Part shown: positions 27,779-46,850 of the stretch, piece by piece
How positions within the stretch are numbered: the stretch's first letter is position 1
How the letters are laid out: every line of letters starts with the position of its first letter
Origin: Conexibacter sp. SYSU D00693
GTDB taxonomy: Bacteria; Actinomycetota; Thermoleophilia; Solirubrobacterales; Solirubrobacteraceae
DNA length: 64,000 nucleotides
Direction of reading: 5' to 3'
Assembly: GCF_017084525.1 (NCBI RefSeq)
Contig: NZ_CP070950.1
Coordinates: 3,162,001-3,226,000 of the forward strand
Notes under the pieces: model-generated
Database searches by the model: none
The model's input: only the letters and a program-made list of their open reading frames with translations
What the model was told of the DNA's origin: nothing
Translations under genes and position numbers: made by a program

Positions 27779-27805
27779 ATGCCCGACCCCTCCAACGCCC
27801 AGATC
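27779..27805 (+). repeat. attL (left attachment repeat)
   Basis: Starts ATGCCCGACCCCTCCAACGC and runs 27 bases, identical to 45120-45146. The flanking bases differ on both sides. It is a dead copy of the polX start: the frame stops near 27917. Confidence 0.9.
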
Positions 27806-28061: not shown

Positions 28062-28110
28062 AAAGGACGGAAAGGACCCAAAGGAGCCAAAAAGGATCCG
28101 AAAGGACGCC
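28062..28110 (+). repeat. Tandem AAAGGANNN array (five copies)
   Basis: AAAGGACGG, AAAGGACCC, AAAGGAGCC, AAAGGATCC and AAAGGACGC, starting at 28062, 28071, 28080, 28091 and 28101 (steps of 9, 9, 11 and 10 bases). It directly follows the stop of the AlbA-ATPase gene. The iteron-like spacing suggests binding sites for a replication initiator or integrase arm domain. The function is inference. Confidence 0.6.
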
Positions 28111-29516
28111 TAGTCGTGCTTCAGGCCCCACTTCGCGCCGCGACCCCAGCCCACCGTCTCGACGAGATCCAGGCTTCTCAAGAAGTGGAGGTCCCTTTGA
28201 ACGCTCCGGCGCTCGACGCCCGCGCCCAAAGTAGCGACCACGCGCTGGAGCGCCTGCTCGCCACCTACCGCAAGCACCTGAAGGATGTCTTGCTGCTGCT
28301 GCGATAGGTCATGGCCGATGCGCTTAGGAGGCATGTAGCTGCTCGGACGGAAGCGAACCAGCAACGCGCCGGGGGAGTTCTCAAATTCGGGGCGAGGGAG
28401 ACCTGCTTGAGCGGTGAGCTGGGTCATCTTCAGGGTTCCGCGACCCCACGTTTCGATGATTCCTCGTCGGTAGAAGACGTCTGCGATCGTCGGGTTCCAC
28501 GGGAGCGACTCATGAGGCCGATAGAGGTCGGCCACCTCCAGGCCGAAGTGCAGGCCGCCGCTTGACGTGATCTCTAGGCGGTCGTCGTAGATCGCGATGC
28601 CGACGGAGCCGCCGCCGATCGAGTAGTCCCGATGGCAAAGCGCGTTCGCAAGCGCCTCGCGGAGGGCAACGGGCGGGTAGATCGGATCGTCCGTGCGCTC
28701 GAAAACGCCTGCTTGGATGCGCCCGGCCACAGGCAGATGCGCGCGAAGGAACTGGTCGGCTCTGCTCAGGAGCGTGAACGCATTGCCGTGGAACTGACGG
28801 TTGTCGATGAACTCGGTCTTGTCAGTACCGCGAAAGCGAGCAAGGCGCACGCGACATTGGGGAAACGACGCCACCAGGTTGTCTGACCGGGCGAAGAGCA
28901 CCACAGCGGCGCGTAGGAGACCATCGGCCGTGAGCACCCCGAGCCCTCGGAGCATCTCGCGGGCATCACGGGTTCCCGGTTCCTCAAGACGGCCCCGTCG
29001 CACCGCCTCGTCAACAGTGCGTGCAATCTCGGACTGGTCGAGGTCCGAAACGTCCCAGCCACTGGCGATCTCGCTCTCCCACCGCTGATTCGCATGGTGA
29101 GCCTCGAGCAGCATCTCGTGGTACTGCTCTCGGGAGATGGCAACGGTCGTGTTGCCAATCCGCGCGTACGCCTGGCCCTTGTACGAATGGGGTCGCCGAT
29201 GGCTGCGTCCCACCGAAGCCACGATGACCTCGCCGGTCCCGGCGGGAATACGATCGACCTCCGGTGAGACAGCCGGTTCGATCCGGCTGAACTCCGCAAC
29301 GACTTGCTCGAGGGTCTTGTCGGACACCGTCTGCCCGACGACATGGCCGTCTTGGTCGACGCCAAAGATCACCCGCCCGCCCTGCCCATTCAGCATGCCG
29401 CAGATCGTCTCCGCCGCCTCGCGTCGACAGCCGGTACTGGTTCGGACCTTGAACTCTTGGGTCTCGGACTCGCCCCGAGAAGCCCACTCCTCGACATCGC
29501 TGATGCTGAGCGTCAC
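28110..29516 (-). CDS. AlbA_2/Schlafen-type DNA-binding ATPase (RecG-like COG2865 group)
   Basis: A 468-residue product. The N-terminal domain (ESETQEFKVRTS, AAETICGMLNGQGGRVIFGVDQDG) is the Schlafen/AlbA_2 putative nucleic-acid-binding fold. A GHKL-type ATPase-like region follows (ALREALANALCHRDYS as N-box, then SSGGLHFGLE and RGIIETWGRGTLKM). A winged helix closes the protein (QQQDILQVLAVGG ... LVETVGWGRGAKWGL). These proteins are frequent on mobile elements and are thought to be regulators or defence-related factors; biochemical roles are poorly known. It starts with GTG 29516, with TAGCAT six bases upstream. Confidence 0.82.
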   Translation of the reverse strand: MTLSISDVEEWASRGESETQEFKVRTSTGCRREAAETICGMLNGQGGRVIFGVDQDGHVVGQTVSDKTLEQVVAEFSRIEPAVSPEVDRIPAGTGEVIVASVGRSHRRPHSYKGQAYARIGNTTVAISREQYHEMLLEAHHANQRWESEIASGWDVSDLDQSEIARTVDEAVRRGRLEEPGTRDAREMLRGLGVLTADGLLRAAVVLFARSDNLVASFPQCRVRLARFRGTDKTEFIDNRQFHGNAFTLLSRADQFLRAHLPVAGRIQAGVFERTDDPIYPPVALREALANALCHRDYSIGGGSVGIAIYDDRLEITSSGGLHFGLEVADLYRPHESLPWNPTIADVFYRRGIIETWGRGTLKMTQLTAQAGLPRPEFENSPGALLVRFRPSSYMPPKRIGHDLSQQQQDILQVLAVGGEQALQRVVATLGAGVERRSVQRDLHFLRSLDLVETVGWGRGAKWGLKHD

Positions 29517-30333: not shown

Positions 30334-30463
30334 GGCTTGGATGACCCGCTCGCCGAGGCGGCGGGTCTCAACTGAGGCTTCTCGCTGCCGTTCGATAGGC
30401 CACGTCTACCGTCCGCGCTCCGCATCAGTCAACGGGGGCTGGCTGTTCGAGCAACACGGCGGC

Positions 30464-32563
30464 ATGCCGACTCTGCGACTGGACGGGTATGTCCGTGTCT
30501 CCGACGTACGCGGGCGCGGCGGGCCGTCCTTTCTCTCTCCAACGCTCCAGCGTGACCGCATCGAAGCCTGGTGCACTCTCTTCGGGGCGCGCCTCGTGCG
30601 GGTGGTCGAGGAGATGGACCAGTCGGGCGCTCGTCCGGACCGCCCTGAGCTTCTAGGCGCTATCGAGCGGGTCGAGAGTGGGCGCAGTGACGGCATCGTC
30701 GTCGCCAGGCTGGACCGCTTCGGCCGATCACTGACGGACGCCTTGGCACACCTCGATCGCATTCAGCGAGCCGGGGGGACGTTTGTGTCGGTGGGGGATC
30801 AATTCGATCTAAGCACCGACCACGGTCGTCTCATGCTTCGAATGATGCTGTCGTTCGCCGAGTACGAGCGCGACCGCATCCGCAGCAGCTGGGACGACGT
30901 GCGACGCAAGCGCGTCGAGCGGGGGATCCACGGCGCCAGCAACCCGCCGACGGGCTACCGCAAAGGGCCCGACGCCCGGCTCGTCGTCAGCCACCGCCAG
31001 GCTATGGCCATAGGCGAGGCCTTCGAGATGGCGGCTCAAGGCGGCAACCTCGGCGCGATCGGACGCCTCCTTCGCCAACGAGGCATCCGTGGCAACGACG
31101 GAAGCGGCACGTGGAGTCCAAGCTCGGTGGCGCACCTCCTCGAGAACAGGGCGTACCTCGGAGAGGCCCGCAACGGCCCGTACGTCAAGCGCGACGCGCA
31201 CCCGGCCCTTGTCGATCCGGTCACCTGGCGCCTAGCCCAGCGTCGGCCCAGACGAATCGCCCCGCACCGAGCGGGGCTGTTGAGCGGCCTGGCGCGTTGC
31301 GCGACCTGTCGGGCCGTGATGACGATCACCGGTGGCTCACGGGCGGGGGAGGACCGGTCATACCGCTGCTCGCGCCCGGCAGCCGCCCCATGCCCAGCGC
31401 CCGCCGCGATCTCGTCGCAACGACTCGACACCCTGGCCGAGGACCTCCTGTTCTCCGTCGCTCGCCGGCGCCCACAAGTTCAACGTCGCGCCCGTAGCGC
31501 CATCCATCACGCCGAGCTCGCGCTGGCCCAGGCGGAGGACCGGCTTGCCAGGTACCGGGACAGCGACGCGACCCTTGGCGTGCTCACGGACGAGCAGTAC
31601 GCGGCCGGGCTTGAGACCCGCTCGGAGCGGGTGCGTCGCCTGGCCGAGGAGCTGATGGACCGTCGGGCCGCCTACGCGGCCAGCATCGAAGGGCTGCTCG
31701 AGCAGCTCCCCGACGGCTGGCAGGCCATGGACGTGCCCTCTCGCCGGCGGCTGCTGCACGCCTGCTTCGACGTGCTCTTTGTGGCGCCAGGGCGCGACGT
31801 GCGGATCGAGGATCGGGTCTTCGTCTGCGAGACCGGGGAGGGACCCGGCGGTCTGCCCGCACCCGGTTGCAACGCGGTGATGGGGACGCCGTTCGTGTTC
31901 CCTCGAAGCGGGCGAAGGGCGACTCGGCAGCTGAACCGGATGCTTGCCGCCAGCCGGTACGCGTGGTCGAAAGAGGAGATCGAGCGCCGCCTTCGTGAGT
32001 TCATCGGCGACGGGGACACCTTTCCGACGCCGAAGGAGTTCGTCGAGGCCGACCAGAGGCGGCTGTACGAGCACGTGAAGATGCGCGGCGGCGGCCCGCT
32101 GTGGGCGTCGCGGCTGCGCGTGACCTATCCGCAGCAGGGCCGCACGACGGCGTTGCTCTGGACGCGAGATCGGGTTGAGCAGGAGCTCGAGCCATTCCTT
32201 GCCGGGCGCAGCGCCTGGCCCCGCTACACCGAGTTCTGCAGGGCCGGCAAGCAGAACCTTCGTCGCGCTTTGGTGCGCTTCGCCCCGATCGAGGAATGGG
32301 CCGCCCAGTTCGATCTGTCGATCTCGAACATGCGAGGGCCGCATCTCGTGTGGACAGACGATCAGATCGAAGCTGCCTGCCAGGAGCTGATCGGCGAAAG
32401 CGGCGAGTGGCCTCGACGAGCGGACTTCCGCCGCGCCGGCCTCGACGGCTGCTATGGGGCCATCTGGCGCGGGCTCGGAGCACGGGGCTGGGCGACCCGG
32501 CTCGGCGTCCGATTCCCCGACGAACGGGGAGGCAGAAAGCCCGCCGCATCGCCTCCCGACTGA
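30464..32563 (+). CDS. Large serine recombinase with three C-terminal DNA-binding-like repeats
   Basis: A 699-residue product. The resolvase domain has Ser13 in GYVRVSD as the nucleophile and DGIVVARLDRFGRS, LMLRMMLSFAEYERDRIRSSW as later signatures. The recombinase domain covers ASNPPTGYRKGP to RAYLGEARNG. A zinc ribbon follows (ARCATCRAVM ... YRCSRP ... PCPAP), then a coiled coil (AELALAQAEDRLARYRD). Three repeats of about 64 residues begin at Trp501, Trp566 and Trp630. Site-specific integration or inversion is the known family role. ATG 30464 fits the family N-terminus. Since a tyrosine integrase sits at the element's end, this enzyme may serve another site or be a relic. Confidence 0.85.
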   Translation: MPTLRLDGYVRVSDVRGRGGPSFLSPTLQRDRIEAWCTLFGARLVRVVEEMDQSGARPDRPELLGAIERVESGRSDGIVVARLDRFGRSLTDALAHLDRIQRAGGTFVSVGDQFDLSTDHGRLMLRMMLSFAEYERDRIRSSWDDVRRKRVERGIHGASNPPTGYRKGPDARLVVSHRQAMAIGEAFEMAAQGGNLGAIGRLLRQRGIRGNDGSGTWSPSSVAHLLENRAYLGEARNGPYVKRDAHPALVDPVTWRLAQRRPRRIAPHRAGLLSGLARCATCRAVMTITGGSRAGEDRSYRCSRPAAAPCPAPAAISSQRLDTLAEDLLFSVARRRPQVQRRARSAIHHAELALAQAEDRLARYRDSDATLGVLTDEQYAAGLETRSERVRRLAEELMDRRAAYAASIEGLLEQLPDGWQAMDVPSRRRLLHACFDVLFVAPGRDVRIEDRVFVCETGEGPGGLPAPGCNAVMGTPFVFPRSGRRATRQLNRMLAASRYAWSKEEIERRLREFIGDGDTFPTPKEFVEADQRRLYEHVKMRGGGPLWASRLRVTYPQQGRTTALLWTRDRVEQELEPFLAGRSAWPRYTEFCRAGKQNLRRALVRFAPIEEWAAQFDLSISNMRGPHLVWTDDQIEAACQELIGESGEWPRRADFRRAGLDGCYGAIWRGLGARGWATRLGVRFPDERGGRKPAASPPD
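31958..32539 (+). repeat. Coding tandem repeats at the recombinase C-terminus
   Basis: Three units (31958-32152, 32153-32344, 32345-32539), each W-S/T-x-D/E-x-I/V-E with a later FP or WP, an EF/DF, and a closing WA-x-R/Q-L/F. The DNA is diverged, so this is an old protein-level duplication. Similar modules occur as helicase-associated or homing-type DNA-binding repeats. Confidence 0.65.
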
Positions 32564-32609: not shown

Positions 32610-35600
32610 TTGCGACCGGCTGAGACCAACGCCAAGCCGGCTCAGAAGAAGAAGGCCAAGCCGGGCCGTCTCTCTCCTGAGGAGGCACGACGCCTCGCCC
32701 GCGCCGTGGTCAAGGCGGGAGGCGGCGAGATCGAAGTCAAGGCGCCGCAGCGCAACGCCCGCGACTTCGATGACCCCAAGCGCCAGCCCGGCCTGGTCAA
32801 GTCGCCCGCGTACCGCAAGGACGTCCGCGCGGAGTACGACGCCAGGTCGCCCGAGGAGCGGCGGCACATCGCTCGAGACGCAGAGCGCGAAGAGGGCGCA
32901 GCGGCTCGCGAGATCGACCGGTACTCCAGCGAGAAGCGCCGCGGCGTTCGACTGCAAAAGGCTGCTCTCGCCTCCCTCGACGGCACGGACCCTCTGACGG
33001 ATGAGGAGCGCAAGGGCTTGCGGATCCTGCAGCGCAAGGAGCTTCGCGGGGCACTGAGCATCGCCTCATCGATCGACTCGCTGGAGGCGCCCGACCGCGG
33101 CCCGAACCTCGACCTCGTCAAGAAGATCATCGACCGCATCGGCACCGGGAACGTGCCGACCGGCAGGGACACCGGTGTCTCCAACAGCGAGGCGCTCGCC
33201 AAGGGCGCCAGCGCTGCCCGGAACGTCCTGCAGTTCGCCAATCGGGGCAGCCGCGCCGCCGCGCTTCCCGTCGACCAGCTCGCCGCTGGCATGAAGGTGG
33301 CGGGCAGGGCCGACGCGCACCTCACCCCCAGCCAGGACGCCGCCGCGAAGGGGGCGATAGAGGGGACGAGCAAGTTGCTTGAGCAGCTCACCCGTCCGCT
33401 GTCCGGGACGGTCGGCGGGATCCGCGCGGCCGTGCGTGGCGACAACGTCCTGGAGGGCGCGGTCGCCGGCGCCAAGGAGAACGACCAAAGCTTCGGCGAC
33501 CTGCTCACGGACCTGGGCGTCTCCCCGGACCTCGCCGGCGCAGCCGGTCTGGCGCTCGACCTCACGCTCGACCCGCTCAACCGGGTGTCGCTCTCGGTCA
33601 AGCCGGCGGCCGAGCAGAAGGCGCTCAGCGCGCAGGCCAAGGAAGCTCGCCGGCAGGCCCGAGTCATTGCGCAGGCGCGCAAGCGTGGCGAGTTCACCGA
33701 CGAGGAGCTGCAGGACCTGAGGCGCTTCGCCGAGCAGGCGATCCGCAACGAGGGCGAGAAGGCGGCGAGGTCCGTGAAGCCGGGCCGCGCTCTTCAGGCG
33801 GGGGTGCACGTCCCGGCTCGCGGCATCAAGTCGGTCAACGTCCCGGGCACTCGCGCGGTCGGTGAGCGTGTCGGCAAGCTCGCGCGGCGAGTCGTCCAGA
33901 CGGATCGCGGCAATCAGGTCGCTCGCATCTCGCCCAAGACGGCGCCGAAGGGGATGGTCCGCGCTGAGTCCGATGCCCTGCGGGACATGGAGGCGGAGTC
34001 TCGTGCCGTGCTCACCCGAGTCAGCGACAGGTTCAACCGCCTCGCGCGGCTCGTCGCGAGGGAGACCGGCCGCGATGTCGATCGGTACCGGCGAGTGATC
34101 CATGCGATCGAGGGAGGCACCGTCGACCAGCTCCCGGAGCAGCTCGGCCGGACTGCCCGCGAACTGACGAAGGCGTTCGACGAGGCTGCGGATGTCGCTG
34201 CCGACTACGGCATCCGGCTCCAGCTCCGCGACCTCGCAGTCCCATCTCGCGACCTGAAGGACCTGCTGGGACGCGCCCGCGCGGCGGTGGACAAGACCGT
34301 GCGCTCAGCGGGACGACAGCGCAGCGAAGCTGCGGCCGAGCTGCGCGGCCTTGACGCGGCACGGCCGGCTAGCCAGGTGCCTCAGACGCGTCCGGTCGTT
34401 CGCGCCAATGAGCGCCTCGACGAGGTGCTTGCGCGGGCCGACGGCGAGGGCGTGCTCTCCGACGACAGCGACGTCTTCTGGGAGCGCTACGGCAAGGAGC
34501 TCGAGCTCATCGAGCGGCAGCTGGCCGTCGGTCTCGGCAGCAGCCGGCTGACGCCTCGCCGGTCACGAGTCGTCTCCCGCCTAGAAGACGCCGAGCAGCG
34601 AGGTGCCGCCGTGAACGCGCAACGTGCCGAGCTCACCGCCGGCCCGCCGACGACAGCGACGGAGGAGCGTCACCTCCTCGAGACAATCGCGAAGGTCGGT
34701 GCAGTCACCCGCCGCAACGAGCTGAGGGAAGACGCGGAGCGCCTGCTCGCCCGGGTCGACGCCTCTCCGCCGCCCGTCGGATACGTGCCGCGTCAGTACG
34801 AGCGCCACCTCGAAGACCCTGCCTCGTCGCCTGCTGGGCCGTCCGGCCCAAGTCAGGCGTTCGGGCATGCCGAGCAGCGCCTCGACCGCCGCAGACTGGA
34901 GGACATCGAGCGGGAGTTCGCCGAACGGGGCAAGCAGCTTCCGTTCAGTGTCGACCTTCCTCAGCTCGTCGGTGCTTACGGCGTCAAGCTCGCGAGGCGG
35001 CTGGCCTCCGCGCACCTGTTCCGCGGCGTTCAGGCACGGTTCGGTGCCGCGCCAACCCACGACATCCTCGAGGCCGGTGGCGTGGACCTGTGGCGCGTCA
35101 GTCATGGGCGCTACTCCCGCATGTCTGACGACGACGTCGCGGCGGTCCGCCGCGCGGTTGCCAGCGGCGATGTCCCCGACGACGTCATCGCCTTCCCGAC
35201 CGCTGTCAGCCGCGAGCTTGAGGTTCGCCTTCGCCACCACGACGGCAACCCGCTCATGGCTGACTACGACCGGCTCCTGCGCGGCTGGAAGATCGCATCG
35301 ACCATCGCCCGCCCCGGCTACTTCATCAACACCGCCGTCGGCAACGCCTGGCAGGCCTACCTCCTCGACGCCAGCCCCGCCGACTTCGGACGCGGCTGGA
35401 AGGCCCTGACCGCCCTGGTTGCCGATGAGCGGCGCGCCACCCGCCTCAACGGCACGCCGCTCTCGCGCTTCCTCGACCGCGTCATGCCGAACGCGACGGT
35501 CAAGGTCCTCGGCGTACCGACCCCCGTGCGCGACCTCATCGAGGAGGCACAGGCCGTTGGTCTGGTCCGCGCCGGCTCGCGCATCTCCGACCCGTCCGAG

Positions 35601-36752
35601 TTGTCCCTCGAGCAGCAAGCTCGACGCAACGTGCTGACGCGCATCCGGCCGCTCGAGGCTGCAGGGTCGCTCGCCGAGGACCTCGACGATGCCGCGAAGC
35701 TGGCGCTCTTCATCAAAGGCCGGCGCATGGGCCTGGACCCGAGGCAGGCCGGCAAGCATGCCCTGCTGGGCATGATCAACTACGCCGACCTCTCAGAGGT
35801 CGAGCGGCGGGTGTTCAAGCGGCTCATGCCGTACTACGTCTTCACGTCACGCAACGTGCCGATGCAGGTGAAGCGGATCGCCGCGCGACCCGGCAAGCTC
35901 GCGAACTTCGAGAAGTTCCGGCAGGCGCTAGCGGAGCACGCGGGGCTCGGACCGGACTGGTTGGCGGACCTGACCGACTCCGATCAGGAGCGCATGCCCG
36001 TTCCGGTGCCTGGCTGGAAGCCCGGCGGCTTTCAGGCCTACCGGTACCTGCGCCTTCCGTCCGAGGACCTGAGCCGGCTCACGCCGCTGCTCGGGGGAGA
36101 TGTGGTGCGGGTGCTCAAGCGGTACGCCGCCGACCTGACGCCCGCTATCAAGCTCCCGATCGAGCTCAGCCTCAACCAGCGCTTCGACTTCGACCGGGAC
36201 ATCCAGAACCCGACCGGCCGCCAGGACGAGGCGGGTGCCCTCCTGCGCAACGTCATGCGCCTCGCGGGTGGCGGCGAGAAGGACCAGGTCGACCCGCGCA
36301 CGGGCAAGCGCTACGCCGGCGTCGACGCCCGAGTCGTGCACCTGCTCCGCACGCTCGGCGGGTCCTACGGCGCCCTCGTCCTGTCGGCCGGCACCGAGAC
36401 CAAGGACCGAGGCGGCCAGACCTTCGGCATGCGTCTCCTCAACCAGGCCACGGGCCAGGGCGGCAACGCCCCTGACCCGCTGGATACGCAGGTGAGCCGG
36501 CTCTACGACGCCAAGGACAAGGCGGAGCGCGCGGCAGCGCGACTCCGCAACGAGGGCCGCCAGGACACCGCCGACTACATCCGCGTCCAGGACCGTCTCG
36601 ACGACATCGGTCGCGGACTGACGAAGCTGCGCGCGGCTCTCGGCTACCCGGACGACCGCCGGCAGGTGGGCGAGGTGCGCAGGCGCGAGCTGCTCACAGT
36701 GCGTGAGGGCCCGGAGGTACGGGCGTTCAAGGCCAAGTACGGACTCGACTAG
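32610..36752 (+). CDS. Giant phage-like protein (internal virion/polyvalent type), 1380 residues
   Basis: Starts with TTG 32610 preceded by AGGTGA at good spacing. The N-terminal 250 residues are charged and helical; segments near 270-330 are Gly/Ala-rich (GTVGGIRAAVRG, GAAGLALDLTLDPLN). Near residues 890-915 it reads GWKIASTIARPGYFINTAVG, and near 1070-1090 RLMPYYVFTSRNVPMQVKR. Paired motifs of this kind (RPGYxxxNxxGN; PFYxFTRxNxPxQ) recur in very large tailed-phage proteins thought to be internal-virion or polyvalent ejection proteins. No catalytic motif was recognised. It lies alone, with no other structural genes, between the recombinase and small membrane-protein genes. The role is unknown. 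Confidence 0.6.
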   Translation: MRPAETNAKPAQKKKAKPGRLSPEEARRLARAVVKAGGGEIEVKAPQRNARDFDDPKRQPGLVKSPAYRKDVRAEYDARSPEERRHIARDAEREEGAAAREIDRYSSEKRRGVRLQKAALASLDGTDPLTDEERKGLRILQRKELRGALSIASSIDSLEAPDRGPNLDLVKKIIDRIGTGNVPTGRDTGVSNSEALAKGASAARNVLQFANRGSRAAALPVDQLAAGMKVAGRADAHLTPSQDAAAKGAIEGTSKLLEQLTRPLSGTVGGIRAAVRGDNVLEGAVAGAKENDQSFGDLLTDLGVSPDLAGAAGLALDLTLDPLNRVSLSVKPAAEQKALSAQAKEARRQARVIAQARKRGEFTDEELQDLRRFAEQAIRNEGEKAARSVKPGRALQAGVHVPARGIKSVNVPGTRAVGERVGKLARRVVQTDRGNQVARISPKTAPKGMVRAESDALRDMEAESRAVLTRVSDRFNRLARLVARETGRDVDRYRRVIHAIEGGTVDQLPEQLGRTARELTKAFDEAADVAADYGIRLQLRDLAVPSRDLKDLLGRARAAVDKTVRSAGRQRSEAAAELRGLDAARPASQVPQTRPVVRANERLDEVLARADGEGVLSDDSDVFWERYGKELELIERQLAVGLGSSRLTPRRSRVVSRLEDAEQRGAAVNAQRAELTAGPPTTATEERHLLETIAKVGAVTRRNELREDAERLLARVDASPPPVGYVPRQYERHLEDPASSPAGPSGPSQAFGHAEQRLDRRRLEDIEREFAERGKQLPFSVDLPQLVGAYGVKLARRLASAHLFRGVQARFGAAPTHDILEAGGVDLWRVSHGRYSRMSDDDVAAVRRAVASGDVPDDVIAFPTAVSRELEVRLRHHDGNPLMADYDRLLRGWKIASTIARPGYFINTAVGNAWQAYLLDASPADFGRGWKALTALVADERRATRLNGTPLSRFLDRVMPNATVKVLGVPTPVRDLIEEAQAVGLVRAGSRISDPSELSLEQQARRNVLTRIRPLEAAGSLAEDLDDAAKLALFIKGRRMGLDPRQAGKHALLGMINYADLSEVERRVFKRLMPYYVFTSRNVPMQVKRIAARPGKLANFEKFRQALAEHAGLGPDWLADLTDSDQERMPVPVPGWKPGGFQAYRYLRLPSEDLSRLTPLLGGDVVRVLKRYAADLTPAIKLPIELSLNQRFDFDRDIQNPTGRQDEAGALLRNVMRLAGGGEKDQVDPRTGKRYAGVDARVVHLLRTLGGSYGALVLSAGTETKDRGGQTFGMRLLNQATGQGGNAPDPLDTQVSRLYDAKDKAERAAARLRNEGRQDTADYIRVQDRLDDIGRGLTKLRAALGYPDDRRQVGEVRRRELLTVREGPEVRAFKAKYGLD

Positions 36753-36782: not shown

Positions 36783-37709
36783 GTGTCGCAGCGACCGCCC
36801 GGGGAACCGTGCCCGCCATACGGCGGACGTTGGTGGATCTGGGTTGGCCGCTGGGCACGGAGCGAGTTCGGCGAGGCGTGGCGAGTGTCTCAAGGCAGTC
36901 AGGAACGTGTTCGAGGGACCCATCGGCTTCTGCTGACCGCTGGCTTGGTGGCCCTTTGCCTGGCCGCCGTCGCGGGAGCGCTGGCGGTTCACCACAACCA
37001 GAGCCGGAGCAGCAACCTCCTCGCCGAGGCGACCGGCGGGCTCGCAAGCATCGGTGTGGCTCTGCTGCTCATCGATTGGCTCACTCGCCGCGAGCGTCAG
37101 CTTCGCTACGCCGACCTGACCTGGGTCGTCGTCGAATCCGCCGTCAACACGATTGAGGACGTAGAGGGCGCGCTGCGGTACTTCGCTCGCTCAGTCCAGT
37201 CCCAATCGAGCGTCATGATCGAGCTACGGACCGGCGAGATCCAAGGTGAAGAGCCAGACGATCACGAGGCGATGTTTTGGCGGCAGCGGACGCCGAAGTT
37301 GGAGGAGTCGAGGCGACGACACATCGCCGAGGACATCGAGCTGTGCAAGCGCAACGGCCAAGCACGCGCGGCCCCCTCGGAATATGGGTGGAAGGTCGTG
37401 CCGGGGATCGCCCGCGATCTCGAACACCTAGGGGTTCTCGGGGATCGGCTCGCTGGTCCTGCGCAGGATTCGGACGACGTCCTGCTGCTGCTCCATGCCT
37501 TGTGGCGACTCAGCGATCAGCGACACCGCGTACTCCACGCAAAGGCGCTCTACGAGGACGGCGTGATCAATCCCATCTGGGGCGCGATGGCCGAACTCGG
37601 CGTGAAACTGCGGAGGGCGTACGAAGCAGGAGTTGTGGCGTCCGCAACGGCGCAGCGGTGGACTGGACGAGCGGGAGACGACCCCCCGCCACTGGAACGC
37701 TTGGGTTAG
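36783..37709 (+). CDS. Two-helix membrane protein with cytoplasmic domain, unknown function
   Basis: Up to 308 residues from GTG 36783; a later GTG near 36884 would start just before the first helix and may be the true start, because no ribosome site precedes 36783. Two hydrophobic helices (LLLTAGLVALCLAAVAGALAV and GGLASIGVALLLIDWL) are followed by about 200 soluble, mostly helical residues with a conserved-looking WRQRTPKLEESRRRHIAEDIEL. It is followed 26 bases later by a tiny two-helix protein, possibly its partner. I do not recognise a family. The layout resembles sensor or effector proteins of mobile-element cargo, which is inference. Confidence 0.5.
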   Translation: MSQRPPGEPCPPYGGRWWIWVGRWARSEFGEAWRVSQGSQERVRGTHRLLLTAGLVALCLAAVAGALAVHHNQSRSSNLLAEATGGLASIGVALLLIDWLTRRERQLRYADLTWVVVESAVNTIEDVEGALRYFARSVQSQSSVMIELRTGEIQGEEPDDHEAMFWRQRTPKLEESRRRHIAEDIELCKRNGQARAAPSEYGWKVVPGIARDLEHLGVLGDRLAGPAQDSDDVLLLLHALWRLSDQRHRVLHAKALYEDGVINPIWGAMAELGVKLRRAYEAGVVASATAQRWTGRAGDDPPPLERLG

Positions 37710-38120: not shown

Positions 38121-38573
38121 ATGGACAAGCGATCAGGCAGCACCAACCCCGAGCCGCGAGAGCCCTGGCTGGACAAGCGCCAAGCAGCTGCGCACCTGGG
38201 TGTTACGACCCGCACGATCGAGAATTGGCAGAAGCACGACGGCCTTCCCCACGCTAAGAGCCCAGCCGGAAGTCAGTGCTTCTACCGACGCACGGAGCTC
38301 GACGCATGGCTCCGGCAAGCGCACCACACCGACGCGCGGGAGCTGTGCCCCGTCTCAGACGAGCTGCTCGACGAGGCCGACCATCGCGCCGCCACCCAGC
38401 GGCTCATCGCCAACGCGCTCCACGCTCCGGCCGCCCGACTCCGAGAACTCGCCGACCTCTTCGACGAGGCGTGTCACGCGCTCAACGAGGACGCACTCGG
38501 AGCCCTCAGCGGGGCGAACGAGGTGGCACGAGAGGTACGCGCGCTCTTGGACGTCCTGGACCTCGGGGAGTAA
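38121..38573 (+). CDS. Helix-turn-helix (HTH_17/excisionase-like) protein
   Basis: A 150-residue product. Residues 16-65 form a MerR-like/HTH_17 winged helix: WLDKRQAAAHLGVTTRTIENWQ, then a wing ending YRRTELDAWLRQ. The C-terminal 85 residues are helical (DEADHRAATQRLIANAL, LFDEACHALNEDALG) and could oligomerise. ATG 38121 fits the domain; GTG 38094 is possible. An inverted repeat upstream may be its operator, and a hairpin terminator follows. The role is a regulator or directionality factor of the element. Confidence 0.7.
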   Translation: MDKRSGSTNPEPREPWLDKRQAAAHLGVTTRTIENWQKHDGLPHAKSPAGSQCFYRRTELDAWLRQAHHTDARELCPVSDELLDEADHRAATQRLIANALHAPAARLRELADLFDEACHALNEDALGALSGANEVAREVRALLDVLDLGE

Positions 38574-38669: not shown

Positions 38670-39368
38670 ATGCAACTCAGCAGGACCGCACTCGCCGGCG
38701 TTGTCGCAGGCGTTGCCATGGCAGTCACCGCCACGGCGTGGGGTGTCGCCGCGATCCAAGCGCCAGACGGAACGATCACCGCTTGCGTCGACCAGCAGGG
38801 ACGCCCACGCCTGCTCGACTCAGCATCAGTGCACCCGGGCGACCGCACCTGCACCCGCAAGGAGAAGCAGGTCAAGTGGAACGTCACAGGACCGGCTGGT
38901 GCCCCGGGCCCGCCCGGGCCACCAGGAGCGCCTGGCGCACCCGGACAGCCAGGCGCCTCGGGATCCTCGGTCGTTGCACGCGGCACCGGCACCCGATTCG
39001 AGTGGAACCTCCCACAGGACAACAACAAGACCTACAACCTCGCCAACGGCGCCTTCACCCAGCAGGCCGGCGAGACGGACTACATCGCCGGCAACTACAT
39101 GAAGGTCTCAAGCGAGAACGTGAGCTGCGGTATCGGCTACCCCATCGTCTTCATCCAGCAAGGCGACGACGAGGCCGTCCGAGCCAACGTTGCCGGGGGC
39201 ATCGGAGCACCCGACCAAGAGATCACGACGCCAACGTGGAACCCGTTCCTCGCCGAGGTCACGACCGCAACACAGCGAAGCCTCAGGATCGGCGTTCAGG
39301 GCTTCCAGGGGTGTACCGGCAAGGTGATCGTGGAGAACGCCAAGGTCGTGATCGCCGGCATCCGCTGA
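38670..39368 (+). CDS. Secreted protein with collagen-like GXY repeats
   Basis: A 232-residue product. The N-terminal TALAGVVAGVAMAVTATAWG is a signal/anchor segment. A small Cys-pair region follows (TACVDQQGRPRLL ... RTCTRKEKQVKW), a layout common in exported proteins of Thermoleophilia. About eight GXY triplets (GPAGAPGPPGPPGAPGAPG) come next. A C-terminal beta domain contains NVSCGIGYPIVFIQ and FQGCTGKVIVENAKV, with two Cys that may pair. The GXY stretch is too short for a stable long triple helix but could trimerise. GGGGGAGCG before ATG 38670 may be a ribosome site. It is cargo of the element; a cell-surface role is inferred. Confidence 0.75.
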   Translation: MQLSRTALAGVVAGVAMAVTATAWGVAAIQAPDGTITACVDQQGRPRLLDSASVHPGDRTCTRKEKQVKWNVTGPAGAPGPPGPPGAPGAPGQPGASGSSVVARGTGTRFEWNLPQDNNKTYNLANGAFTQQAGETDYIAGNYMKVSSENVSCGIGYPIVFIQQGDDEAVRANVAGGIGAPDQEITTPTWNPFLAEVTTATQRSLRIGVQGFQGCTGKVIVENAKVVIAGIR

Positions 39369-40464: not shown

Positions 40465-40759
40465 CGCGCCGAGCGCGCCCCGTCCGTCCGCCCTCGCCGC
40501 CATCCTTGGATCGCCCGGTTCGCCTGGGCAGCTCAAGATCGTCAACAGCTCCGGCAAGGGCGTGGCTTCGGCCGCGCCCTTCGTCGTTCGGTGGCGATAC
40601 GTCCGAGGCGCGGTGCATCCTGACCGTGCAGGTACATCCACGCCTACCCGTATGGGTGGCGCATCAGGGCAGCCCCGTCGGCAGCCATCGAGCAATGACG
40701 ACTTGATCCGCCGCGACGTTCGGTCGCGGAAAGGAAGGAGCTGCCATGTTCCAGGCTGA
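40448..40759 (+). CDS. Doubtful small ORF between hypothetical gene and primase
   Basis: A 103-codon frame overlapping the previous gene by 17 bases and the primase by 14. The first half has ordinary composition; the second half is basic and unstructured. No domain and no good ribosome site. If it is not real, 40465-40745 is non-coding leader with an AAAGGAAGGAG ribosome site just before the primase. Confidence 0.2.
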   Translation: MALTPDAPSAPRPSALAAILGSPGSPGQLKIVNSSGKGVASAAPFVVRWRYVRGAVHPDRAGTSTPTRMGGASGQPRRQPSSNDDLIRRDVRSRKGRSCHVPG

Positions 40760-41780
40760 GGGGCTGAGCACCCCACTGTCTGTGGCTGAGCGGGCCGGCC
40801 TGGCCTGCTGTCACCTCGAGGCCCTGACCCGGCACGCGCCGGCCGAGCACGACGTGCTCGAGCTGCGCATCAAGTGGCCGAACTCTCCCGGCATGCGACA
40901 GCGGTTCGGCGCAACCGGAGCGGATGACCGGCAGGTCGGCCCCGAGATCCGGCGCCTTGCCGCCGAGGCCATCTCGGCAAGCGACCGCGGCGCCGAGGTC
41001 TACGTGAGCGCCGGCGCCCGACTGCGCAATGAAGGAGGGGCGGGCGTCGTGCCCGCCCTGGGCGTGTTGTGGGCGGATGCCGACGATCCCCAGTCGCGGG
41101 CCGCCGTCATCAGCTTCCCGTGCCGACCGTCGCTCGTGCTCGAGACGTCGCCGGGCCGGTGCCACGCCACCTGGCTTCTCCGAGAGCCGATCCCGTCAAC
41201 GCTGGCCGAGCGGCTGATGCGTCGCCTGGCCGCCGAGCTCGGCACCGACCCGAAGGCCACCGATCGAGCACGCATTCTGCGGCTGGCCGGAACCGTCAAC
41301 CGGAAGAGGTCGCCCTTCGTGGTGCGGCCCGTCGTGAACCGCTCCGAGGGCGTCCTGTTCAAGCGGTGGCGGGTGTACTCGGCGGCGGACATCGCCACCT
41401 GGCTCGGCGGCGTCCATGACCCCGACTCGCCGGCCGCCAATGTCGTGCCCATGACGGCGCGCACCACGGTCGGTACGGATGTGCTCAGGGACTTCCTCCG
41501 GTCGATCCCGGCCGCCGTCTACGTGCCGGCCCTCACGGGCCGCCCCGTCAACGGCGAGGGCTTCGTCGCCTGCCCATGGCATGGCAACGGGGCCGAGCGC
41601 ACACCGAGCCTCCACGTGCTCGGCCGACGCCCTGAGGCCTACTTCTGCCATGGCTGCGGGGAGGGCGGCGACATCTTCGACGCGGCGGCCAAGGTCTGGG
41701 CGCTTGATGTCCGGCGCGACTTCCCGGCCATCAAGGACCGGCTGCTGTCCATGGTTCGCGGCGAGGAGGTGGCGGCATGA
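40746..41780 (+). CDS. Primase: archaeo-eukaryotic-type core with CHC2 zinc finger
   Basis: A 344-residue product. Core motifs of the primase-polymerase fold are visible: VLWADADDPQ (motif I, DxD), SPGRCHATWLL (motif II, with the His), and RARILRLAGTVNRK near motif III. The C-terminus carries a DnaG-like zinc finger: C276-P-W-H279 and C301-H-G-C304, in AYFCHGCGEGGDIFD. It would synthesise primers for the element's replication. AAAGGAAGGAG lies close before ATG 40746, a strong ribosome site. It overlaps the RepA-like ATPase gene by four bases; the two belong to one replication operon. Confidence 0.82.
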   Translation: MFQAEGLSTPLSVAERAGLACCHLEALTRHAPAEHDVLELRIKWPNSPGMRQRFGATGADDRQVGPEIRRLAAEAISASDRGAEVYVSAGARLRNEGGAGVVPALGVLWADADDPQSRAAVISFPCRPSLVLETSPGRCHATWLLREPIPSTLAERLMRRLAAELGTDPKATDRARILRLAGTVNRKRSPFVVRPVVNRSEGVLFKRWRVYSAADIATWLGGVHDPDSPAANVVPMTARTTVGTDVLRDFLRSIPAAVYVPALTGRPVNGEGFVACPWHGNGAERTPSLHVLGRRPEAYFCHGCGEGGDIFDAAAKVWALDVRRDFPAIKDRLLSMVRGEEVAA

Positions 41781-42892
41781 GCGCCGAGCCGCTGCCTTCG
41801 ATGACGGCCTTCCAGGCGCAGCTTGCCGTCATCGAGGGGGGGATGGTGGTCCCTCCGGGAGAGACACACAACCACCACCCCCCTGTTCTGGGCGCTAGAG
41901 AGCAGGCCCGGCGATGCATCCGGTTCGTCGACATGGGCGTCGAGCTCGCCAAGCCGGAGGAAGCTCAGGTCTGGCGCGTCGACCGCTTCGCCCAGGACGG
42001 CGCGCTCACGACCCTCGCCGCCCGAGGCGGTGCCGGCAAGTCATGGCTCGGGATGGCGCTATGCCACGCCGTGACGACGGGCACGCCGGCCGCTGGCATC
42101 TCCACCACGCCTGGAGTCGCCGTCTACGTCGACGGCGAGATGGGCACCCGCATGATGACCCGGCGGTGGCGTGACTGTGGGCTTCCGCGGGACGCGTTCA
42201 AGTACGTCGACGCCATGGGGCTCGACCTCGGCGCCCAGGCGGGCGTTGACGCCCTCGCCGAGGCCCTCGCCCGGGTGCAGGCGCGCTTCATCGTGTTCGA
42301 CTCGCTTCGTCGCCTTGCCCCCGGCAAGAAGGAGAACGAGTCCGACGACATGGCCCCCCTCGTCGCCTCGTTGGCGAACGTGTGCCGCGAGCTCGACGCC
42401 GCCGGCCTGCTCCTCCACCACGCAGGACACGATGACACCCGGGCCGTGCGCGGCTCGTCCGCCATCGTCGACCAGTCCGACGCCGTCTTCACCGCCCGCC
42501 GCCTCGCTGACACGACGATCAGCCTCGAGTGCGATCCGCTGAAGGGCGGCAAGTTCCGCATGGACGAGGAGCCCCCAGCCCGGCTGCTGAAGATCGTGGC
42601 CCATGGGGGGAGGGTGGTGGTCGAGGGATCCCCCCTTGCGACCACCACCACCCCCCGCCAATCCGCGTCTGACCGGATGACCGAGCGCATCCAACAGGTC
42701 ATGCGCGAGGAGGCAACGCCGCTGCGAAAGACAGCGATCGCCGAGCTATGCGTGGTCAGCGCGGACACGCCGTCTTTCAGGGACGCGTTCAGGCAACTGC
42801 GGCGCCTCGACGTGGTGGTCGAAACCGAGCACGGCTTCGTCCTGGCTGGCACGCCGACGCAGGACTCCATGCTCGCCGAGGCTGCACGATGA
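41777..42892 (+). CDS. RepA-like hexameric helicase/ATPase (AAA_25)
   Basis: A 371-residue RecA-fold ATPase. Walker A is ARGGAGKSWLG with Lys88; Walker B is FIVFDSLRRL. The sensor stretch LLLHHAGHDDTRAVRGSSAIVDQSD is characteristic of RepA/DnaB-like plasmid helicases. The C-terminal 90 residues resemble a winged helix (LRKTAIAELCVVSADTPSFRDAFRQLRRL). The start overlaps the primase stop and the stop overlaps the excisionase-like start, both as ATGA. The likely role is unwinding at the element's origin, perhaps at the AAAGGANNN array brought near after circularisation. Confidence 0.85.
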   Translation: MSAEPLPSMTAFQAQLAVIEGGMVVPPGETHNHHPPVLGAREQARRCIRFVDMGVELAKPEEAQVWRVDRFAQDGALTTLAARGGAGKSWLGMALCHAVTTGTPAAGISTTPGVAVYVDGEMGTRMMTRRWRDCGLPRDAFKYVDAMGLDLGAQAGVDALAEALARVQARFIVFDSLRRLAPGKKENESDDMAPLVASLANVCRELDAAGLLLHHAGHDDTRAVRGSSAIVDQSDAVFTARRLADTTISLECDPLKGGKFRMDEEPPARLLKIVAHGGRVVVEGSPLATTTTPRQSASDRMTERIQQVMREEATPLRKTAIAELCVVSADTPSFRDAFRQLRRLDVVVETEHGFVLAGTPTQDSMLAEAAR

Positions 42893-43173
42893 CCCAGGCG
42901 AACGTCGACAGCGTGGCTGCCCTCGTCGCTGCCGTTCTCGAGATCCCTGGCGTCGCCGAGGCCGTCGAGCGAGTGGGTGCACGACCGCCCGCAGCGCTGT
43001 CAGAGCCGCTGCTGACCGTCGACGACGTTGCCCATCTGCTCGGCCTGCCTGCGAAGACGGTCCGGCAGTACGCCCGAGAGGGGCGCCTGCCGGCCGTCAA
43101 GATCGGAAGCGGGTGGCGATTCGCTCGCGCTGAGGTCCACCAGTACCTCCGCGCGGGGACACTGGCCGCCTAG
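42889..43173 (+). CDS. Excisionase-like helix-turn-helix protein
   Basis: A 94-residue product. The C-terminal half is a MerR-like/HTH_17 domain: LLTVDDVAHLLGLPAKTVRQYAREGRLPAVKIGSGWRF in outline, ending RAEVHQYL. This is the standard layout of Xis-type directionality factors next to tyrosine integrases. It is translationally coupled to the RepA-like gene (ATGA overlap) and convergent with the integrase (four-base stop overlap). The coupling would link excision with replication. The N-terminal 45 residues are helical. Confidence 0.8.
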   Translation: MTQANVDSVAALVAAVLEIPGVAEAVERVGARPPAALSEPLLTVDDVAHLLGLPAKTVRQYAREGRLPAVKIGSGWRFARAEVHQYLRAGTLAA

Positions 43174-44540
43174 GGCCTGGCCTCCGAGCCCTCCGCGGCG
43201 GAGGAAGTCTCAAGCGCGGCTAGAGGGTTCACCTCGACTGCGAACGCGCGCGACAGGCGGTCGGCGGCGTCCTGCTTCGGCAGGTAGTGGGCGTAGACCA
43301 TCGTCGTCTCGATCGACGCGTGGCCAAGCCACTCCTTGATCTCGACCAGCGTGGCGCCATGAGCGGCAGCCATCGTCGCGAACGAATGGCGCAGGTCGTG
43401 CCAGCGCAGCTTCTTGCCGACGCCGGCGGCGACAAGCGCCCGCTTGAACGCCTTGTCGGCCCCGCCGTGATCAACCACACCGCCCGCCGAGTTGACGAAC
43501 ACGAGGTCGTCGTCGAACGTCCAGGCCTCACGCTGGCGAAGGCGCGCGAGCTCCGCGGCCGCCTGGTCGATCAAAGGCAACGACCTCGACCTCTTGCCCT
43601 TCGTCCGGCCGGCCTCGGTGGGCGAAAGACGCGTCGGCATGTTCCGCTCCACCCGCAAGGAGCGCGCCGCGAAGTCGACGTCCCTCCAGCGCAGTGCCCG
43701 CAACTCGCCCGCTCGCAGCCCGGTCCAGGCTGACACGCGGATCATCGACGCGTACAGGCCCGCCATGTACCTACGCGCCTCGGTGACGCGCTCTGCCTGT
43801 CGTTCGCTGACGGCGCCGCGCTGCCCGTCCTGGCGCAACGTCTCGCGTGGCGTCTCGGGCAGCCAGTCGCCCTCCGCGGCAGCCGCTACCGCGATGACCT
43901 CCTCGGGCTGCAGAAAGACGATGCCCGCCGCCTTTCGTGCAGGCGCCGGCCGCTTGACGTCGCGCATGGGATTGCCCGGCAGCCATCGCTTCTCGACCGC
44001 TCGAGCGAGGGTTCCCGACAGCACGCTGTGCGCCATCCGTCGGTTGCCGCGGCTCACCCCTCGCTCAGCCATCTTCTCCATGGCCAGGTCTAGGCGGCTG
44101 ACGTCGAGCCGCCGCAGCGGCGTCGATGCCGGCAGGACCGGCAGCACGTGCAACTGCCAAACCGATCGGTAGGACTGCAGGCTTCCAACCGACAGGTCCT
44201 TCTCGTGCTCGGCATGGCGCACGTACTCGTCGAACGCATCGCCGAGCGTCCTCACTCCCGGCTTGGCCGCGAAGACGTGGCGTCCCTTCTCGGCGGCCAT
44301 GAGCTCCGCCAGCGCCTCCTGGGCCTCCTTCGGGGTCAGGTGCCCGTCGGGCTTAGGGCCGTCTGCGGTGCGCCAGACGACGGCGCCCCGCGCCGTCCGT
44401 CGGCCGGAGTCCTTGACCCACGCCGGGCCGAGAACCTTGCGGGTGGGTGTCCCCTCGGCGCGCATGTACTTGGCGACCCACACGCGCCCGCCCGCACGCG
44501 GCTCCACCCGGACGTGTCCGCTAATCCGTGGCGCGCTCAC
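43170..44540 (-). CDS. int: Tyrosine integrase of the element
   Basis: A 456-residue product. The catalytic core has Arg in WTGLRAGELRALRW, HDLRHSFATMAA (HxxR), LGHASIETTMVYAHY with the nucleophilic Tyr. The SAM-like core-binding domain covers LGDAFDEYVRHAEHEKDLSVGSL onward, and the N-terminal 90 residues could be an arm-binding domain (RVWVAKYMRAEG). GTG 44540 was chosen because it begins the conserved AP2-like N-terminus. It should catalyse integration at the 27-base polX site and, with the excisionase-like protein, excision. It lies about 580 bases from attR. Confidence 0.92.
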   Translation of the reverse strand: MSAPRISGHVRVEPRAGGRVWVAKYMRAEGTPTRKVLGPAWVKDSGRRTARGAVVWRTADGPKPDGHLTPKEAQEALAELMAAEKGRHVFAAKPGVRTLGDAFDEYVRHAEHEKDLSVGSLQSYRSVWQLHVLPVLPASTPLRRLDVSRLDLAMEKMAERGVSRGNRRMAHSVLSGTLARAVEKRWLPGNPMRDVKRPAPARKAAGIVFLQPEEVIAVAAAAEGDWLPETPRETLRQDGQRGAVSERQAERVTEARRYMAGLYASMIRVSAWTGLRAGELRALRWRDVDFAARSLRVERNMPTRLSPTEAGRTKGKRSRSLPLIDQAAAELARLRQREAWTFDDDLVFVNSAGGVVDHGGADKAFKRALVAAGVGKKLRWHDLRHSFATMAAAHGATLVEIKEWLGHASIETTMVYAHYLPKQDAADRLSRAFAVEVNPLAALETSSAAEGSEARP

Positions 44541-44620
44541 CGCTCTGCGCTCTTCGTGGTGACGGCCCGAAGGCGATGCCTCCGGGCCGTCGACTCGCTC
44601 GTCATGGACGGTGGACGTCC

Positions 44621-44923
44621 CTAGCCGAGGGCGAACTCGAGGAGGACGTCCCCGGGCTGCTCGACCCCGCTGATGGCGAGCCCGACCATGTCGGCGGCCT
44701 CCTCGTAGAAGTCGACGGACGGGCCGTCGTCGCCGAGGTGGTCGTTGATGGCGGCGATCAGCTCGCCGTGGTGGCGGACCATGGTGCTCGCCAGCTGACC
44801 GCCGGCCTCGCGGCGCTGGCCGGCGAAGGCATGGCCGAGGATCGTGTCCACCTGGTTGATGGAGTTGGCCCGGATCTTGCGCAGCTCGCTGGGAGTCCGC
44901 TCGTCGATACCGTGGATCTGCAT
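44621..44923 (-). CDS. Small hypothetical protein beside the integrase
   Basis: 100 residues, mainly helical and acidic (ERTPSELRKIRANSINQVDTIL; VDFYEEAADMVGLAISGVEQPG). A good ribosome site, AGAGGTGAG, precedes ATG 44923, which supports it as a real gene. It is upstream of int on the same strand and may be co-transcribed. No family recognised; a regulator or small phage-type protein is possible. Confidence 0.6.
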   Translation of the reverse strand: MQIHGIDERTPSELRKIRANSINQVDTILGHAFAGQRREAGGQLASTMVRHHGELIAAINDHLGDDGPSVDFYEEAADMVGLAISGVEQPGDVLLEFALG

Positions 44924-45017
44924 CGATACTCACCTCTCGGTGCCGGGGCCGGGGTGCTGCAACACCGCCGGCCCGTCTCTTTTCCGGGGCTCAGTCGAGT
45001 CCCGCTGATGGGCTGCT

Positions 45018-45119: not shown

Positions 45120-45146
45120 ATGCCCGACCCCTCCAACGCCCAGATC
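45120..45146 (+). repeat. attR (right attachment repeat, start of polX)
   Basis: Identical over 27 bases to 27779-27805. It encodes MPDPSNAQI of the intact polX. The sequence upstream (44924-45119) belongs to the element and holds no further gene. Confidence 0.9.
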
Positions 45147-46850
45147 GCCGCGGCCTTCGACGAGCTCGGCGACCTCTACGAGCTCGACGGCGCGATCGTG
45201 CATCGCGTCGTGGCCTACCGCAACGCGGCGAAGGCGGTGCGCGAGGCGCCGGTGTCGATCGCCGCGCTCACGCGCGAGGGGAAGGTCACGCAGCTGCCCG
45301 GGATCGGCAAGACGCTCGAGGAGAAGATCAGCGCGCTGCTCGAGACCGGGACGATCCCGGCGGCGGAGAAGCTGCGGGCGAAGTTCCCGCCCGGGCTGGT
45401 GGACATGACACGCCTGCCGGGCGTGGGGCCCAAGCGGGTGCGCAAGCTCTTCGACCAGCTCGGGATCGCGTCGCTCGACGCGCTGCGCGAGGCGGCCGAG
45501 CAGCAGCAGCTGCGCGACGTGAAGGGCTTCGGGCCGAAGTTCGAGGAGACCGTCCTTGCCGCGTTTGCGGCGGGGGTGGCGGAGAAGGCGGCGCCGCGGA
45601 CGCTCCTGCACCGGGCGACGGACATGGCGGCGGCGATCGTCGACGCGTTGCAGGCCCATCCGTCGGCGGGGACGGTGGCGGTCGCGGGCGGCGTACGGCG
45701 GCTCACCGAGTCGGTCAAGGACCTCGACGTCATCGCGACCTCCGACGACCCTGCGGGCCTGGCCGGCGCGCTGGGCGAGCTCGACCTCGTCGAGTCCTGC
45801 AGCGTCGCCGGCGAGGCGGGCGCACGGGCACGGACGCACACGGGCATGCCGATCGACCTGCGGGTCGTGGCGCCCGACCAGCTCGGCAACCTCCTGCAGC
45901 ACTTCACCGGCTCGAAGGCCCACAACGTGCGCCTGCGCGAGATGGCGGTGCGCAAGGGGCTGCACGTCTCCGAGTACGGCGTGCTGGACGACGCGACGGG
46001 CACGACGCACCGCTGCGCGACCGAGGAGGAGGTCTACGCGCTGCTGGGTCTGCCGTGGATCGCGCCCGAGCTGCGCGAGGACCGCGGCGAGCTCGACGCC
46101 GGCTTCATCCACCCGGAGCTCGTCACCCAGGAGGACCTGCGCGGCGACCTGCACTGCCACACGATCGCCTCGGACGGCCGCGCGACGATCGAGGGCATGG
46201 CGCACGCGGCGCAGGCCCGCGGCCTCGAGTACCTCTGCATCACCGACCACTCGGCGACGCACGGCTTCGGCAACGACGTCCCCGCCGACGAGCTGCTGCG
46301 CCAGGTCGAGCGCGTGCGCGAGGTCGACGCGTCCATGGACGGCTTCACGCTGCTCATCGGGACCGAGACGAACATCCTCCCCGACGGCCGGCCCGACTAC
46401 GACGACGACGTGCTCGCCCAGCTCGACTGGGTGGTCGGCTCGGTCCACACCCAGTTCCAGATGGGCGAGGCGGAGATGACCAAGCGCATCGTCGCCGCGC
46501 TCGAGCACCCGATGATCGACTGCCTCGGCCACCCGACCGGCCGCCTCATCGAACGGCGCGAGGGCTACACCTTCGACCTCGACGCGGTCCTCGACGCCGC
46601 CAGGCGCACGGGCTCGATGCTCGAGATCAACGGCAACCCCAACCGCCGCGACCTGCGCGAGACCCACGCGCGCGCCGCGGCGCAGGCCGGCATCCCGATC
46701 GTCATCAACTCCGACGCCCACGGCCCCGAGACGCTGGACGTCACCCGCTGGGGCGTCGCCACGGCGCGCCGCGCCTGGCTGACCAAGGACGACGTCGTCA
46801 ACACCCTCCCCTGGAGGGACTTCGCGCCCCTGCGCAAGCGCGCGCGGTGA
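45120..46850 (+). CDS. polX: Family X DNA polymerase with PHP 3'-5' exonuclease domain
   Basis: A 576-residue product, full length. The N-terminal helix-hairpin-helix motifs are LPGIGKTLEEKI and LPGVGPKRVRKLF. The polymerase palm shows GGVRRLTESVKDLDVI (DxD) and PIDLRVV as the third carboxylate. The PHP domain holds DLHCHTIASDG, ITDHSATHG, GTETNI, EINGNPNRRDL and SDAHGPE, the metal ligands of an active nuclease. It fills short gaps in base-excision repair. The first nine codons are the attachment core, so coding is intact, but upstream DNA is element-derived. The stop codon lies within a 33-base palindrome. Confidence 0.95.
   Translation: MPDPSNAQIAAAFDELGDLYELDGAIVHRVVAYRNAAKAVREAPVSIAALTREGKVTQLPGIGKTLEEKISALLETGTIPAAEKLRAKFPPGLVDMTRLPGVGPKRVRKLFDQLGIASLDALREAAEQQQLRDVKGFGPKFEETVLAAFAAGVAEKAAPRTLLHRATDMAAAIVDALQAHPSAGTVAVAGGVRRLTESVKDLDVIATSDDPAGLAGALGELDLVESCSVAGEAGARARTHTGMPIDLRVVAPDQLGNLLQHFTGSKAHNVRLREMAVRKGLHVSEYGVLDDATGTTHRCATEEEVYALLGLPWIAPELREDRGELDAGFIHPELVTQEDLRGDLHCHTIASDGRATIEGMAHAAQARGLEYLCITDHSATHGFGNDVPADELLRQVERVREVDASMDGFTLLIGTETNILPDGRPDYDDDVLAQLDWVVGSVHTQFQMGEAEMTKRIVAALEHPMIDCLGHPTGRLIERREGYTFDLDAVLDAARRTGSMLEINGNPNRRDLRETHARAAAQAGIPIVINSDAHGPETLDVTRWGVATARRAWLTKDDVVNTLPWRDFAPLRKRAR

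Follow-up and report, generated by a model that had tools for sequence, protein, structure and literature searches.

Phage satellites, as defined in PMC13376191, carry no viral structural genes. Known satellites remodel the capsids of their helpers or, in the case of the capsid-forming PICIs (cf-PICIs), provide their own heads and steal tails: a cf-PICI has genes for capsid, portal, connectors and terminases, and its tails are borrowed (PMC10690885). MulchRoom and MiniFlayer, satellites of Streptomyces phages, have genes for capsid and packaging but none for a primase (PMC10690885). The locus described here lies in a 64,000-nucleotide stretch of the genome of Conexibacter sp. SYSU D00693 (NCBI RefSeq assembly GCF_017084525.1, contig NZ_CP070950.1, positions 3,162,001 to 3,226,000, forward strand), the whole of which is referred to as the window. 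It is a 17.3-kb element with exact ends that carries one virion-type gene, encoding a giant protein of 1380 residues, and no recognisable head gene. The favoured reading, which is held tentatively, is that it is a satellite-like element supplying ejection proteins to particles made by a helper. It may further be, more doubtfully, that such elements follow a distinct satellite strategy, in which the heads and packaging of a helper are combined with the element's own podovirus ejection or tail-interior proteins, captured several times independently from phages. In the open-access literature, no relevant report was found of satellites with ejection or internal virion proteins.

The sequence-only reading of the window had pointed to a 1380-residue protein with paired motifs and had associated it with very large virion or polyvalent phage proteins. 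The open reading frame (ORF) at 32610-36752 on the plus strand is indeed intact, with 1,380 codons, a TTG start and no internal stop, and both motifs are present: RLMPYYVFTSRNVPMQ starts at residue 1071 (DNA 35820-35867), as described, and RPGYFINTAVGN starts at residue 901 (DNA 35310-35345) rather than near 895. The start of the giant is uncertain; a codon-usage caller favours GTG at 32706, which would give 1348 residues. The gene and its conserved segments are as follows.

32610..36752, plus strand: giant virion-type protein, 1380 residues, assigned by family membership; start at 32610 or 32706
33570..33575, plus strand: invariant or near-invariant Asp321-Pro322 in the N-terminal conserved segment, consensus D-I-x2-D-P-L (33-member alignment A3)
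35142..36509, plus strand: C-terminal conserved domain, residues 845-1300, mostly helical, with a fold as in phage 'large polyvalent' proteins (AlphaFold2, BFVD)
35802..35843, plus strand: signature E-R-x4-R-x2-P-Y-Y-x-F, residues 1065-1078 (motif scan)

Searched alone against Pfam and PHROG, the window giant has no significant match, and patterns picked automatically from it alone found no relatives. Two relatives were found by tblastn: a 1,783-residue gene product encoded directly ahead of the lysis gene in Cellulosimicrobium phage DS1, and a 1,106-residue one encoded directly ahead of holin/GH25 genes on a Paenibacillus plasmid that bears terL. From a profile built on five relatives (A2), a signature around the second motif was designed by hand, E-R-x4-R-x2-P-[FY]-Y-x-[FW], and viral contigs and species genomes were scanned with its degenerate DNA form. 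The viral contigs yielded 115 signature loci, 113 of which encode a protein matching the family hidden Markov model (HMM) at E<=1e-10, which argues that the motifs of the window giant are not a product of chance. In 84,980 species genomes the scan yielded seven loci, three of them true; by this measure the family is large and phage-centred. Isolates that carry a family gene include Paenibacillus larvae phage vB_PlaP_API480, Microbacterium phage Shocker and Arthrobacter phage Jasmine. In DS1, Shocker, Jasmine and the P. larvae phages API480/SV21, the gene belongs to the late operon of a complete phage, whereas in the window it does not.

Family proteins range from about 930 to 2,850 residues, with a conserved domain near the C-terminus. 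In the window giant, D..K..P...RN is joined by E-R-x4-R-x2-P-[FY]-Y, about 100 residues from the C-terminus, and an N-terminal segment with D-P-[LT] is also present, in which D321 and P322 are conserved across the 33-member alignment. This second conserved segment indicates that kinship extends over the full length. The window giant scores 4e-109 in an 18-row family profile, being itself among the rows; by blastp it shares 25-28% identity (E 1e-17 to 1e-28) with Paenibacillus members and with those of two genomes introduced below, G001 and G002. On this evidence the ORF truly belongs to a family of giant podovirus-type virion proteins. Among 33 family members, 15 match phrog_36598 and six match a tail-fibre/host-specificity PHROG; Pfam matches none of the 33, and the Pfam LPD38 model likewise matches none at E<=0.001. 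Among solved structures, 9k3a, a phage 'Tail protein', is matched by the family profile at E=1e-7. One profile match, in G175, proved to be a KdpB-like protein and was discarded as a false positive; another, in G388 (contig C360), was set aside because its contig has 40% GC within an assembly that is otherwise high in GC, and is likely foreign. This 24-kb contig (L172, L176), with its giant-family gene, is probably a foreign phage contig.

The AlphaFold2 model of residues 845-1300 has a pLDDT of 77 and a pTM of 0.74. Its fold matches in BFVD are proteins annotated as large polyvalent (best E=6.8e-10) and one as LPD38 (E=5.1e-5); against the PDB, Foldseek returned no significant match for this model, and a second look gave only Z <3. 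The association with polyvalent phage proteins is thus borne out by family membership and by a polyvalent/LPD38-like C-terminal fold. LPD38 polyvalent proteins (PMC5512222), of which gp69 of phage JC1 is an example (PMC9144972), share this fold and a phage-type context, but the giants differ from them in lacking enzymatic domains; no Pfam domain reaches threshold. Nor was any cellular enzyme family matched. Strong transmembrane segments were not found in the giants. Their gene position, size, helical content and neighbours (nozzle, portal and partner genes) suggest an internal or ejection-type protein of short-tailed phages.

The giant gene lies in a low-GC island between exact 27-bp direct repeats 17,341 bp apart, in a host genome that is a single 4.43-Mb contig. 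Apart from the giant, the island contains the following.

27779..27805, plus strand: attL, 27-bp exact direct repeat forming the first 9 codons of polX, identical to 45120-45146
28110..29516, minus strand: Schlafen AlbA_2/HATPase_c_4 protein, regulator or defence-type cargo (PF04326 E=1.4e-18, PF13749 E=3.6e-20)
30341..32563, plus strand: large serine recombinase with zinc ribbon (Pfam Resolvase/Recombinase/Zn_ribbon; phrog_95 E=1.9e-76)
38121..38573, plus strand: HTH_17/excisionase-like protein (Pfam/PHROG matches; weak likeness to terminase small subunits)
40746..41780, plus strand: RepB-type primase with CHC2 zinc finger (PF16793 E=2.4e-9, PF01807 E=3.4e-6)
41777..42892, plus strand: AAA_25 RepA-like ATPase (PF13481 E=1.2e-30; 56% identity to a protein of the G009 element)
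42889..43173, plus strand: excisionase-like helix-turn-helix (HTH) protein, convergent with the integrase (51% identity to a protein of the G009 element)
43170..44933, minus strand: tyrosine integrase adjoining attR (PF00589 E=3.4e-28; the true start may be 44507)
45120..45146, plus strand: attR, restoring the 5' end of polX (45120-46850), which is intact on the right (repeat comparison)

A membrane protein and HTH proteins are also encoded. The island thus has attL and attR, an integrase at one end, and replication and regulatory genes of its own, as a satellite does. The serine recombinase upstream of the giant is cargo or a second integration system; its C-terminal extension holds about three repeats of about 60 residues (W-x-D ... 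W-P-x3-F-x2-A), which perhaps provide extra DNA binding. Also inside the element, at 38670-39368, a protein is encoded that is predicted to be exported and contains a collagen-like Gly-Pro repeat. A 308-residue ORF at 36783-37709 is among the orphan genes of the element.

In the family of the window's host, 146 genomes were searched by profile, and giants were found in eight. Five headless elements emerged, that of the window and those of genomes G002, G009, G239 and G049, which span 14.3-28.5 kb and four genera in all. Each of the four further elements is bounded by direct repeats of 28-51 bp, whose sequence resembles that of tRNA 3' ends, and has a tyrosine integrase, a giant and no recognisable head gene.

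G002 element: 15.6 kb between 28-bp repeats, in tandem with an 8.5-kb element
G009 element: 28.5 kb between 51-bp repeats
G239 element: 19.7 kb between 48-bp repeats
G049 element: 14.3 kb between 46-bp repeats

The giants of all five are intact ORFs of 1077-1426 residues. Between the G009 and window elements, identity is 56% for RepA, 38% for the primase, 51% for the excisionase and 46% for the integrase; the window integrase also shares 39-43% identity with those of the G002 elements. G009 encodes further virion-type genes, a tail-nozzle-like protein (phrog_3287, phrog_511) and a minor-tail C-terminus. A check for the gene beside recombinases, proposed in the sequence-only reading, had a divided outcome: the adjoining serine recombinase does not recur and was rejected as the carrier of the giant gene, whereas the recombinase that does recur is the tyrosine integrase, at the opposite end of the element. 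Most RepB-primase relatives in the host family (L159-L171) have no giant within the 11-20 kb examined, so the giant is an accessory of this replicon type and does not belong to its core. Complete-phage loci with a giant are found in G001 (terL, portal and head protein) and on contig C611 of G436 (terL and portal by profile, with further late genes assigned from their position and from blastp matches to the G009 element). In the host family the gene thus occurs in two complete-phage loci and in five headless elements, and so is not limited to complete prophages; neither of the two results that the sequence-only reading had named as refuting it was obtained. Outside the host family but within its class, G191 has a further complete-phage locus, where terminase and portal were assigned by gene position.

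Some features of these elements deserve separate mention. The 8.5- and 15.6-kb elements of G002 (L006+L007; joined coordinates 5616, 14104, 29721) stand in tandem at a single att site resembling a tRNA 3' end, and each encodes a tyrosine integrase of its own that is related to that of the window. In G049, a second tyrosine integrase (L192:13690-14913) lies directly to the right of the attR repeat, which suggests a second tandem element. The G009 element encodes SIR2_2, TIR_2 and Mrr-type proteins (L174:15204-16037, L175:5515-6372 and L174:16283-17833), probable anti-phage defence cargo, and other defence-type cargo comprises a RES/Xre pair in the G002 element and an HD phosphohydrolase in that of G239.

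The earlier observation that capsid, portal, tail and terminase genes are missing near the giant holds for the whole island, which has no such match in PHROG or Pfam. The large-terminase and portal profiles (phrog_2 and phrog_1216) match nothing in the 4.43-Mb genome, although both detect their genes in the two complete-phage loci. Whole-genome searches for terminase (phrog_2) and portal found no match in four of the five element-bearing genomes; in the fifth, G049, a weak terminase match lies on a contig other than that of the element. Within the five elements, no large terminase, portal or head gene was recognisable, a result that includes a PHROG scan for the best 25 of the 45 families matched. 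Over the 146 genomes, the portal profile matches the two complete-phage loci, one weak place and no headless element, and the head-protein profile matches G001 only; no orphan head module was seen, by profiles less sensitive than that of the giant. The weak place (G371:C1:1044490-1045284), where no giant was detected, is possibly another phage type. As to packaging redirection, the sole candidate in the window element is an ambiguous HTH/TerS N-terminal match at 38121-38573 (E=1.1e-6 to a terminase-small-subunit family), and terminase small subunit was dropped as an assignment, an excisionase/HTH_17 protein explaining the match better.

Compared with satellites of the PICI/SaPI/StCI type (PMC13376191), the present elements likewise have attL and attR, an integrase, regulatory and replication genes and defence-type cargo. 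They are 14.3-28.5 kb rather than 7-20 kb, however, and carry one to three virion-type genes (one in the window, three late-type genes in G009), while no TerS, Rpp or capsid-redirecting gene was recognised in them; helper dependence is putative. With cf-PICIs they share integration and a virion of which part is self-encoded and the remainder, putatively, comes from a helper, but they lack major capsid, portal and terminases and bring an ejection or tail-side protein instead. MulchRoom and MiniFlayer are also actinobacterial and encode virion parts; unlike them, the window element has a primase and lacks capsid and packaging genes.

In complete phages, the giant sits between a partner gene and the lysis genes. 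The phage partner, encoded directly upstream of the giant, is an Ala/Gln-rich protein of 370-490 residues for which no solved relative was found, and the partner-giant pair also occurs in the G002 and G239 elements. Between the G239 element and the G436 phage, the partners share 34% identity and the giants 37% over 1,396 residues, and blastp detects no other shared gene; what links the other partners is solely their position, length and composition. In a 38-row tree of giants, G239 and the G436 phage are sisters, as are G002 and a viral contig, and G009 and G049; the window giant stands beside the G001/G002 group. Several switches between phage and element occur on this tree, since at least four label changes are required by its starred branches. 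Shuffled labels give a similar number (mean 4.8), so phage and element labels are not clustered.

Sharp ends, integrase, excisionase and replication genes, defence-type cargo and small size fit a satellite, and the absence of heads together with an ejection or tail-side gene of its own is the opposite split to that of cf-PICIs; a satellite-like element that supplies ejection proteins is favoured for these reasons. On helper infection or induction, the element would excise at polX via its tyrosine integrase and replicate with its own Rep and primase. Its DNA would then be packaged into heads built by a helper podovirus, in whose particles the element's giant would replace or join that of the helper, and such a particle would open the next cell with ejection machinery encoded by the element. 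In G009, tail proteins of the element's own would be supplied as well. The satellite strategy put forward in the sequence-only reading has gained in that the same arrangement occurs, as predicted, in discrete elements of other genera; mobilisation, packaging and a role at cell entry are putative.

Several points weigh against this interpretation. No helper was identified for the window strain, and no TerS, Rpp-like gene or capsid-size determinant was recognised in its element. The partner gene is missing from two of the elements, those of the window and of G049. The portal and head controls over the 146 genomes used generic profiles, which are less sensitive than the tuned profile of the giant. 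Loci were selected via the giant, so its constant presence is partly a matter of ascertainment, and the changes of label on the tree, taken alone, do not distinguish capture on several occasions from several losses of head genes. Excision, induction and particles are predictions, and there are no close copies of the elements for a test of selection.

It may be that the giant is interference cargo, a captured ejection-type gene whose product joins and poisons the particles of infecting podoviruses or blocks superinfection, so that the host cell is protected and the element spreads by other means. Such a role, which seems unlikely, would suit the other defence-type cargo of the elements (SIR2, TIR and Mrr in G009, RES/Xre in G002, HD phosphohydrolase in G239) and the presence in the window element of the giant only, without the phage partner; prophage-encoded blockers of virion assembly are known (PMC10884400). 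However, a dominant-negative giant would tolerate truncation, and the intact, full-length giants of all five elements, together with the upstream partner in G239, suit a working virion part at least equally well. Decay or chance is also improbable: the elements would be prophages that have lost their head modules, or plasmid-like islands with a captured fragment of late genes, and the ORF would have no present function. Selecting loci by the giant would expose just such leftovers, the three late genes retained in G009 are compatible with partial deletion, and the tandem elements of G002 and G049 mark recombination-prone sites. Yet the giants are intact in five of five (1077-1426 residues), accompanied by a functional-looking integrase and att sites, and no head-gene fragments were found, even where the terminase, portal and head proteins of the closest phage, that of G436, were compared by tblastn with the G239 element, a search that did find the partner protein; nor does the portal profile match any headless element. 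That the elements are complete small viruses with head proteins of their own that escape recognition, the giant being part of their virion, is very improbable. Several element genes do lack a database match, but the 14.3- and 17.3-kb elements have little coding room beyond known genes, their unknown ORFs are short, mostly not common to the elements and form no late operon, and no large terminase is matched in any element.

If the elements are indeed satellites that supply ejection proteins, they would be the mirror image of capsid-forming PICIs. Satellites could then determine the way in which a stolen particle delivers its DNA, and perhaps the host that receives it. They would also provide a natural assay for the role of the giant ejection-type proteins of podoviruses, as the same protein can be studied both within a complete phage and as a single-gene add-on.

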